From the NCBI RefSeq assembly GCF_003999255.1, contig NZ_CP034791.1, positions 2,644,501 through 2,708,500 on the forward strand: a DNA stretch of 64,000 bases. Reading direction: 5' to 3'. The position numbers and the translations under genes were made by a program. This document shows, one piece after another, positions 13,942-15,853 of this stretch. The notes under the pieces are model-generated. The model made no database searches, had not been told where the DNA came from, and saw only the letters and a program-made list of their open reading frames with translations. The stretch comes from Caldicellulosiruptor changbaiensis (GTDB lineage Bacteria; Bacillota; Thermoanaerobacteria; Caldicellulosiruptorales; Caldicellulosiruptoraceae). Position 1 is the first letter of the stretch, and every line of letters begins with the position of its first letter.

Positions 13942-15393
13942 TCAAAAATACAAATCCCTGTCACCTTGTCGTATCATCTCAAGCCTTTTTTCTGTTTCTT
14001 TTCTCATCTTTTCATCTTTTATTTGATTTAAGCTATCATATATTAATTTCCTCCCAATTTCCTTAGTTTTCTCAGAACCATAGTCCTCTAAGTATTCCAT
14101 AAAAGTCAAAAGCGCATTTGGAGTGCAAAAGTCTTGAATATCACCTGTCTTTGCATATTGCATAAACAAATCCCCAGTTCTTCCTCTTCTGTAGCAAGCT
14201 GTACAGTAGCTTGGAATATAACCTGCCTCACAAAGAGTTCTTATGACCTCATCAGGACTTCTTTTGTCCTCAACTTCAAACTGTGCAAGGTCTTCATCTA
14301 AATCACCAGTCGATTTTCCTTGGTACTCAAGTGTATATCCACCAACACCTGTACAAGACCCAGCGCTAATTTGAGAAATTCCAAGGTCAATTACCTCTTC
14401 CCTAAACCCTGGTCTTTCTCTTGTTGATAAAATCATACCAGTGTAGGGCACAGCAAGTCGAATTATTGCAACAATCTTTTTGAACTCGTCATCAGATACT
14501 AAATATGGATATTTCTCTTTTGTCACCTCAACACCTTCGGCAGGTCTAATCCTTGGCACAGAAATTGTATGCGGTCCAACACCAAACCTTTCTTCTAAAT
14601 GCTTTGCATGTAAAATCAATCCTACAACCTCAAACTTGTAATCATAAAGCCCAAACAAAACCCCTAAACCAACATCGTCAATTCCGCCTTGCATTGCTCT
14701 GTCCATTGCCATTGTATGCCAGTCGTAATCTGATTTTGGTCCTTCGGGGTGCATGTATTCATAGGTTGGGCGATGATATGTCTCTTGGAAAAGCACATAT
14801 GTGCCTATTTTTGCTTCTTTTAGCATTCTATATTCTTCAATTGTTGTTGCTGCAATGTTTACATTCACTCTTCTGATATTGCCTTTTTCCTTGTAAACAG
14901 AGTATATAGTGTTTATGGCATCTATAACATATTCAATTGGAGCTTCTTTGGGGTCTTCGCCAAGCTCAAGAGCAATTCTTTTGTGCCCAAGAGATTCAAT
15001 TATCTCAACTTCTTTTCGTATCTCATCCATCGTAAGTTTTCTTCTTTTCATCTTAGTATTTGACCTGTGATAACCACAGTAGCGGCAGTTGTTTACGCAA
15101 AAGTTGCTGATATAAAGTGGTGCAAAAAGCACAATTCTCTTGCCATAAATCATCTCTTTTACTTGCTTTGCCGCCTTAAAAAGCTTTTCCAAAAGGTCTT
15201 TGTCATCTATATAAAGAAGTGTTGCAACCTCATGAGGCTCAAGTCCATTTAGCTGCAAAGCTTTTTCAATTATTTCTTCTGCTCTGTCAACATTTTTGCT
15301 TCCCTCTTCAAGGATATCAAAAATCATCTGGCCATTTATAAACTCAGCTCTTTCCCACTCATCTTTTCTAAACATCTCAAAATCACACTCCAT
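13942..15393 (-). CDS. hydG: [FeFe]-hydrogenase H-cluster maturase HydG
   Basis: 483-aa radical-SAM enzyme that cleaves tyrosine to supply CO and cyanide for the hydrogenase H-cluster. The radical-SAM CX3CX2C cluster motif is seen as CVNNCRYCGY (~residues 100-109). The C-terminal auxiliary cluster ligands are in CTACYRRGRTGD and DFC. Segments such as VGLGVLFGLYDYKFE and STRERPGFREEVI match HydG. The ATG at 15393 has no clear ribosome site; an in-frame ATG at 15375 with GGAGTGTG upstream may be the real start. It follows the TM1266-type gene by 3 nt and is read from the attenuator-like leader at 15672-15813. The hydrogenase itself is outside the window. Confidence 0.95.
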   Translation of the reverse strand: MECDFEMFRKDEWERAEFINGQMIFDILEEGSKNVDRAEEIIEKALQLNGLEPHEVATLLYIDDKDLLEKLFKAAKQVKEMIYGKRIVLFAPLYISNFCVNNCRYCGYHRSNTKMKRRKLTMDEIRKEVEIIESLGHKRIALELGEDPKEAPIEYVIDAINTIYSVYKEKGNIRRVNVNIAATTIEEYRMLKEAKIGTYVLFQETYHRPTYEYMHPEGPKSDYDWHTMAMDRAMQGGIDDVGLGVLFGLYDYKFEVVGLILHAKHLEERFGVGPHTISVPRIRPAEGVEVTKEKYPYLVSDDEFKKIVAIIRLAVPYTGMILSTRERPGFREEVIDLGISQISAGSCTGVGGYTLEYQGKSTGDLDEDLAQFEVEDKRSPDEVIRTLCEAGYIPSYCTACYRRGRTGDLFMQYAKTGDIQDFCTPNALLTFMEYLEDYGSEKTKEIGRKLIYDSLNQIKDEKMRKETEKRLEMIRQGDRDLYF

Positions 15394-15396
15394 TTT

Positions 15397-15642
15397 TTAT
15401 TTAGTAAGAGCACTTTTTACCTTAACACTCTTCAGAGCACCAAGCTTTCCTGTGAGCGCACCAATCTCATCAGTTGTCCCATCAACTATGAGCGAGATTA
15501 CACAAAGCCCTCTTTCTTTGTATGGTATACCCATCCTTCCAACAATAATATCGCCATGGTCACTTAGGATTTTGTTGAGCTTATCTGACACCTCTTTCCT
15601 GTTCTCAACCACAATTCCAATAACACCAATCCTTCTTTCCAA
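15397..15642 (-). CDS. TM1266-family putative iron-only hydrogenase system regulator
   Basis: 81-aa ACT-like/ferredoxin-fold protein (RRIGVIGIVVENRKEVSDKL, then GDIIVGRMGIPY and IDEIGALTGKL-like segments). The small family is named for Thermotoga TM1266 and usually sits beside hydE/hydF/hydG. It lacks a DNA-binding motif, so the regulator label is based on neighbourhood. The start is TTG at 15642, preceded by GGTGAAGTGGA. It is the first gene of the two-gene hydG operon. Confidence 0.85.
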   Translation of the reverse strand: MERRIGVIGIVVENRKEVSDKLNKILSDHGDIIVGRMGIPYKERGLCVISLIVDGTTDEIGALTGKLGALKSVKVKSALTK

Positions 15643-15671
15643 TCCACTTCACCGTTCCCTCTTTTTAGAAA

Positions 15672-15813
15672 AAATAAAACCACCTCTCCTGACATTTTGC
15701 TTTCATCAAAAGCTTCGCTTTAGCCAAAAGAGGTGGATATCTTTCTCTTCATTTTCACATCCCCTCCTTATCAGGCCACGATGCCCTCTAAGTCAGGAGC
15801 AAATGTTTTGTTT
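15672..15813 (-). promoter_or_regulatory. Attenuator-like leader RNA of the TM1266-hydG operon
   Basis: A TATAAT box (complement of 15820-15825) would start an RNA near 15813, about 170 nt before the first gene. Three parts stand out. A terminator-type stem CCACCTCT (complement of 15729-15736) pairs with AGAGGTGG (15680-15687) and runs into TTTTATTTTTT. An early segment CTCCTGAC (complement of 15792-15799) is perfectly complementary to GTCAGGAG (15686-15693), which overlaps the terminator's 3' arm by two bases; the pairings compete. A 10-codon reading frame lies between them. The layout looks like a riboswitch or translation-sensing attenuator. I do not recognise a known class. Confidence 0.55.
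15720..15752 (-). CDS. Ten-residue leader peptide candidate in the hydG leader
   Basis: ATG at 15752 followed by KRKISTSFG and TAA. AAGGAGGGG lies 8 nt upstream, a stronger ribosome site than that of most genes here. The last codons lie in the 5' arm of the terminator-type stem, so a ribosome on this frame would melt the stem. The peptide has no run of one amino acid, unlike classical amino-acid attenuators. Confidence 0.4.
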   Translation of the reverse strand: MKRKISTSFG

Positions 15814-15853
15814 GTTAATATTATAACATACTTTTTGAGTTTTTGAAAGTATT

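Follow-up and report, generated by a model that had tools for sequence, protein, structure and literature searches.

The minus-strand leader of the TM1266-hydG operon of Caldicellulosiruptor changbaiensis is likely to be a cis-acting, riboswitch-type transcription attenuator of an undescribed RNA class that controls H-cluster maturation; no transcript ends have been mapped and no ligand is known. The leader lies within a window of 64,000 nt (the whole stretch of DNA that was analysed), and all coordinates are positions in this window. The assignment is supported by the conservation of a small hairpin core with compensatory changes, taken together with the genes found behind it and the terminators that follow it. 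The core, its covariation, its gene associations and the terminators were established by computation, as were competing folds, which are model predictions, in most terminator-bearing leaders. The operon and its promoter consist of the following features.

13942..15393, minus strand: hydG, radical-SAM H-cluster maturase (TIGR03955, 8.9e-198), second gene of the operon
15397..15642, minus strand: TM1266-family gene with a TTG start (PF21699, 5e-34; TIGR03959, 9.5e-35), first gene of the operon
15847-15813, minus strand: promoter, with a -35-like TTCAAA (15847-15842), an extended -10 TG-T-TATAAT (15828-15820) and a predicted start at about 15813
15828-15813, minus strand: Rex-operator-like palindrome TGTTATAATATTAACA, overlapping the -10 of the TM1266-hydG promoter

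The TM1266 product is a small NikR_C-like domain protein, annotated only as a putative [FeFe] hydrogenase regulator. A second, sub-threshold TM1266-like gene (33.7 bits) is present elsewhere in the same genome (L084, 1572989-1573216 of G000), and similarly weak paralogues occur in most related genomes. A 176-aa ORF on the plus strand (15296-15826), antisense to TM1266 and the leader, is almost certainly spurious.

In the leader alignment the extended -10 promoter and the Rex-type palindrome are kept in the congeners. Gel-shift evidence has been published for Rex binding to the orthologous C. bescii promoter, that of Athe_0168-hydG, where the operator is listed 181 bp before the Athe_0168 ATG (PMC6391272). 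With a conserved palindromic operator on the -10 and this gel shift, the promoter met the membership test for the Rex regulon. Orthology and promoter conservation together place the predicted transcription start near 15813, upstream of all leader elements. The site is slightly asymmetric and is used in both orientations, since one genome (G031) has the exact reverse complement GTTAATATTATAAC in place of the palindrome. Rex acts on DNA at initiation; the RNA element is situated further downstream, and the relevant passages of PMC6391272 say nothing of it. Loss of rex in C. bescii did not raise hydG (log2 -0.21 to -0.27), and the Hyd and Ech operons were not raised either (PMC6391272). With no increase in those other hydrogenase operons, the expression data speak neither for nor against control by the leader, and they were dropped as an argument for a second layer of control.

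The entire leader was found in all 12 of the Caldicellulosiruptor genomes searched. It folds at -50.6 kcal/mol on the minus strand, compared with -33.4 kcal/mol for shuffled sequences (z = -4.5; 0 of 200 shuffles). The genus alignment contains two conserved blocks, [C/A]TCCTGACTTAGAGGG...CCTGATAAGGAGGGG and CCACCTCTTTTG...GTCAGGAGAGGTGG-U, separated by a spacer that varies freely. The first block holds the hairpin core, which was defined by covariance searches, pair counts and single-sequence folds and has the following parts.

15798-15761, minus strand: hairpin core, putative aptamer, 38 nt
15798-15795 with 15764-15761, minus strand: P1, UCCU with GGGG
15794-15793 and 15766-15765, minus strand: J1, GA and GA
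15792-15789 with 15770-15767, minus strand: P2, CUUA with UAAG
15788-15787 and 15772-15771, minus strand: J2, GA and GA
15786-15783 with 15776-15773, minus strand: P3, GGGC with GCCU
15782-15777, minus strand: terminal loop of the core

The genus core thus reads UCCU-GA-CUUA-GA-GGGC-loop-GCCU-GA-UAAG-GA-GGGG. It is nearly invariant and present as a single copy in 12 of 12 congeners, and no second copy rose above noise in the C. changbaiensis genome. The general form, UCCU-GA-P2-GA-GGG-loop-CCU-GA-P2'-RA-GGGG, consists of three short helices and two symmetrical tandem-GA internal loops. Among core members J2 is mostly RA/GA and J1 mostly GN/RA. Since these loops are not complementary as DNA, their conservation points to an RNA.

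Covariation was assessed on 44 distinct core sequences. Standard pairs filled 98% of cells, and double-sided changes were present in six of the ten pairs. The covariation score was 0.292, against 0.110 +/- 0.012 for shuffled alignments (0 of 500) and no more than 0.09 for slid structures. Pairing is retained in P2 variants as different as CUUA:UAAG, CGC:GCG, CCUG:CAGG, CCUA:UAGG, GUUU:AAAC, GUUU:GAAC and AUUU:GAAU, which together use CG, GC, UA, AU and wobble pairs. The alignment was fitted to the covariance model and therefore leans towards the structure; two checks are independent of it, a hand decomposition of 23 representatives and single-sequence folds of six divergent members, which gave the same hairpin. 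The membership test for a riboswitch-type covarying structure with conserved unpaired nucleotides was met. Free variation of P2 between conserved J1 and J2 loops is what would be expected of a binding site held in place by helices, for which there are no binding data.

The distribution of the core was determined by iterated covariance searches, with model R1 built from 13 sequences and models R2 and R3 rebuilt from accepted members. R1 located the core upstream of TM1266-hydE in two members of family f4 and upstream of hydE in family f25; R2 and R3 extended it to Thermosediminibacteria and further classes. The accepted members comprise 43 loci in at least 35 genomes, 12 families and six classes of the phylum, with the following genes behind them.

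TM1266-hydG: 14 loci, of which L105 and L118 lie outside the genus
hydG: 14 loci (L088-L093, L095, L101-L104, L109, L110, L132)
ECF S-component: eight loci (L068, L087, L094, L097, L111-L114)
TM1266-ECF operons: three loci (L106, L128, L130)
TM1266-hydE: two loci (L043, L045)
hydE: one locus (L067)
hydF: one locus (L116)

Examples of HydE, HydF and HydG were confirmed as gene identities with NCBIfam. All 43 loci met the membership test for a riboswitch-type 5' leader of functionally related genes, and in a survey of 398 genomes of the phylum most R3 matches at E <= 0.01 lay ahead of hyd, TM1266 or ECF genes. Covariance matches contradicted by open coding frames or by context were rejected (L044, L046-L048, L059, L069-L071, L085, L086, L096, L098-L100, L107, L108, L115, L117, L129, L133). 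A pattern scan of genome contigs returned mostly chance matches in GC-rich genomes, the only real ones being L078 (Thermosediminibacter litoriperuensis) and L082.

Several leaders appear to carry the core in tandem. Second model matches were obtained at L128/L131 (one locus with two matches), L130, L094 and L104, and an apparent second copy was seen by eye in L132 and L106. In first copies J2 is less strictly conserved than P1 and the J1 GA pair, and the second GA loop is often missing from the upstream copy. Tandem arrangements have been described for known riboswitch classes (PMC9481103). At the hydE locus of G100 a Guanidine-I riboswitch-like match lies downstream (L067, 2872-2970, plus strand), below the gathering score (50.4 against 63 bits).

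The ECF S-component (PF12822) forms an operon with TM1266 in three families (L106, L128, L130) and stands alone behind the core in two others (f41 and f116). The operon and core leader that it has in common with TM1266 in those three families link it to the hydrogenase system. Comparison with NCBIfam equivalogs and solved structures gave no match for it, and its substrate is unknown; it may import something needed for [FeFe] hydrogenase maturation. In the f41 ECF leaders the last strand of the core doubles as the ribosome-binding site, as with GCGAAGGGGGAATTTTTATG in L087.

These gene associations also bear on a possible alternative, in which a regulatory protein, most obviously TM1266, would bind and stabilize the core and so cause termination, in the manner of PyrR or ribosomal-protein autoregulation. 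In seven families the first gene downstream of the core is TM1266; its product is NikR_C-like without a DNA-binding domain and has no annotation beyond that of a putative regulator, and the gene is present in 23 of 23 tested genomes, most of which have the core. A two-loop hairpin is a plausible protein site, and the sequence signature would be no different with a protein effector. As in PyrR, TRAP and ribosomal-protein leaders, stabilization of the core would favour the terminator, and TM1266 as first gene would allow autoregulation; unlike them, the leader matches no Rfam protein-binding leader and there is no evidence that TM1266 binds RNA. The TM1266 fold is not known to have an RNA-binding function. 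Against this alternative, TM1266 is also encoded in genomes without the core (G012, G232, G325), its loci L014-L018 and L020-L026 show no core, and in Thermosediminibacteria TM1266 genes elsewhere mostly lack it. Since TM1266 is equally present without the core, its co-occurrence with the core is uninformative. When TM1266 loci of other families were used as a negative control, no core was found apart from a weak candidate in G100. This GC-rich relative of the core (L124, 1229-1275, plus strand; E = 0.007) lies upstream of TM1266-hydF and keeps UCCU-GA and AA-GGGA around a different P2; G100 also has a core before hydE.

Downstream of the core the leader contains an intrinsic terminator, whose arms can pair with either strand of the core.

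15736-15669, minus strand: intrinsic terminator, 14-bp stem with a U-rich tail (15679-15669)
15736-15729, minus strand: terminator 5' arm CCACCTCT, extending to CCACCTCTTTTGGC (15736-15723)
15693-15680, minus strand: terminator 3' arm GTCAGGAGAGGTGG, forming the 14-bp stem with 15736-15723
15799-15792, minus strand: CTCCTGAC, 5' strand of the core (a1), with the 3' arm segment GTCAGGAG as alternative partner
15693-15686, minus strand: GTCAGGAG, within the terminator 3' arm, exact complement of CTCCTGAC
15759..15769, minus strand: AAGGAGGGGAU, 3' strand of the core (a2), which can pair as antiterminator with the terminator 5' arm AUCC-A-CCUCUUU (15738-15727)

The first-pass annotation had described an 8-nt segment, a stem with a U-rich tail and the complementarity between segment and terminator arm, and all of these were confirmed in their positions. 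Two 8-mer complementarities were observed where 0.21 were expected, a number reached by 46 of 1000 shuffles; alone they are only modestly unusual, and they become convincing through their conservation. All 12 congeneric genomes retain GTCAGGAGAGGTGG-U, combined with CTCCTGAC in seven and with ATCCTGAC, which still forms seven pairs, in five. The CTCCTGAC/GTCAGGAG pairing is thus kept throughout the congeners but is restricted to this genus. The annotation's two exclusive folds, one terminating and one reading through, hold as a prediction, with this version of the competition specific to the genus; the competing pairing of wider occurrence joins the core 3' strand to the 5' arm of the terminator. 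Most of CTCCTGAC lies in the two-loop hairpin core, a feature of greater importance that the annotation had overlooked, and covariance searches revealed compensatory changes in this core. Neither of the findings named as refutations was obtained: the leader is conserved in close relatives, and the predicted start, for which no mapped ends are available, is not downstream of 15680.

A terminator-like hairpin with a U-run was found within 300 nt after the core in 26 of the 27 leaders examined; its start usually lay 57-75 nt beyond the first base of the core. The finder accepts any hairpin with a U-run in this range, and its background rate in unrelated intergenic sequence was not calibrated. When genus leaders were folded with the 3' arm 6 nt short, the minimum free-energy structure at 37 C was the antiterminator in 11 of 12 species, and with the full terminator the fold switched to core plus terminator in those 11; at 70 C the antiterminator was retained even at full length in two species. 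In Thermosediminibacteria and several other families the terminator sequences are unrelated, yet their 5' arms can pair with the purine-rich 3' strand of the core. Outside the genus, competing folds were predicted in about half of the leaders with a terminator, and truncated transcripts of some families (L104, L105 and L116 among them) folded without the antiterminator. A platform mutually exclusive with the core is thus present as far as predicted folds can tell. The specificity of the pairing between core 3' strand and terminator 5' arm is the weakest link, as its base order was not significantly better than that of shuffled 5' arms in most leaders; shuffled arms do as well because both strands are low-complexity purine or pyrimidine tracts.

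The spacer and terminator 5' arm of C. changbaiensis also contain a short reading frame.

15752-15720, minus strand: mini-ORF MKRKISTSFG, ten codons, in four of 12 congeners (L001, L003, L004, L006) and no other family

Its ATG follows a plausible ribosome-binding site (GGAGGGG) and its codons run into the terminator 5' arm, so that leader-peptide attenuation could be envisaged, with translation of MKRKISTSFG* over this arm coupling ribosome position to termination. However, eight of 12 congeners and all other families, in which the spacer changes freely, lack the mini-ORF, and its residues match no obviously relevant amino acid. This lack of conservation rules against the mechanism, which is all but excluded, and the membership test for a leader-peptide attenuator (a conserved short ORF with regulatory codons) was not met.

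It could further be argued that only the Rex promoter matters, the leader having no regulatory role and serving as a weak, constitutive terminator or as a hairpin for RNA processing or stability. Binding of Rex to the orthologous C. bescii promoter (PMC6391272) is consistent with this, and intrinsic terminators in 5' leaders can simply lower expression. A constitutive terminator would, however, leave unexplained a core that covaries across six classes, its single functional gene set, the use of the ribosome-binding site in ECF leaders and the apparent tandem copies, and we consider this explanation very unlikely.

None of the 4227 families of Rfam 15 reached the gathering score in the window, and permissive searches of the leader (to E = 10) and of the core in 12 related loci (to E = 5) returned nothing related; membership of any Rfam riboswitch or leader family was therefore not met. 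The test for a T-box leader also failed, with no Rfam match and no aminoacyl-tRNA synthetase or amino-acid operon downstream. Such an RNA is not described in the open-access literature searched, a search that did not extend to subscription papers or supplementary tables. Like terminator-type riboswitches (purine, TPP, guanidine, NiCo/iron, Moco/Tuco), the element is a 5' leader having a conserved core with unpaired conserved nucleotides and covarying helices, an exclusive terminator and antiterminator, an alternative translational platform, tandem copies and a coherent regulon. Unlike the known classes, its core is very small (about 32-38 nt) with two stacked tandem-GA loops, and no ligand has been identified. 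By location, structure and platform the leader is thus probably riboswitch-like and outside every catalogued class, direct ligand binding being an inference. The first-pass annotation had likewise recognized no known riboswitch class, and its proposal that H-cluster maturation is controlled by premature termination is supported by the comparative evidence, without experiment.

In the attenuator model that we prefer, a transcript starting at the Rex-controlled promoter would form the two-loop hairpin core first. With an effector holding the core closed, the terminator hairpin would form and transcription would stop before TM1266-hydG. With the core empty, its strands would be free for the incoming terminator arms, the 3' strand pairing with the 5' arm and, in this genus, CTCCTGAC also with GTCAGGAG; the antiterminator would form before the 3' arm is complete and RNA polymerase would read into TM1266-hydG. 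Where the core precedes an ECF S-component gene in other bacteria, its closure would instead prevent translation by covering the ribosome-binding site. Since a closed core permits the terminator or covers the ribosome-binding site, both platforms are predicted to be OFF when the core is bound. Sequence alone is the basis for inferring that switching occurs in cells, that its direction is OFF and that the effector is a small molecule or an ion connected with H-cluster assembly.

The effector might be whatever the co-regulated ECF transporter imports, or a product derived from that compound. SAM, tyrosine, iron and redox state had been proposed as signals in the first-pass annotation; the first three remain only suggestions, the ligand being unidentified, and redox is not favoured. 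Because Rex already brings redox to the promoter (PMC6391272), the leader probably senses something else, for example the state of H-cluster assembly or the supply of a precursor. The compact conserved core, dual platforms, tandem copies and co-regulated importer favour a ligand model, without an identified effector or binding data. A bolder reading, which in our judgement falls a little short of probable, takes the core as the aptamer of a new class of riboswitch that responds to a ligand specific to the biogenesis of [FeFe] hydrogenase and gates hydE, hydF, hydG, TM1266 and the importer together. Its ligand could possibly be an H-cluster precursor, an assembly intermediate or the nutrient of the ECF S-component.

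Neither Rfam nor the literature searched yielded a regulatory RNA for the maturation of [FeFe] hydrogenase. The element described here appears to define an RNA regulon of all three maturases (HydE, HydF and HydG), the unexplained TM1266 and an ECF component that previously had no link to hydrogenases. An RNA of about 38 nt from a thermophile is suited to structural work and would be a handle for tuning hydrogen production in thermophiles. It offers a testable route to the signal that tells cells to build the H-cluster, together with a likely functional assignment for the ECF component.
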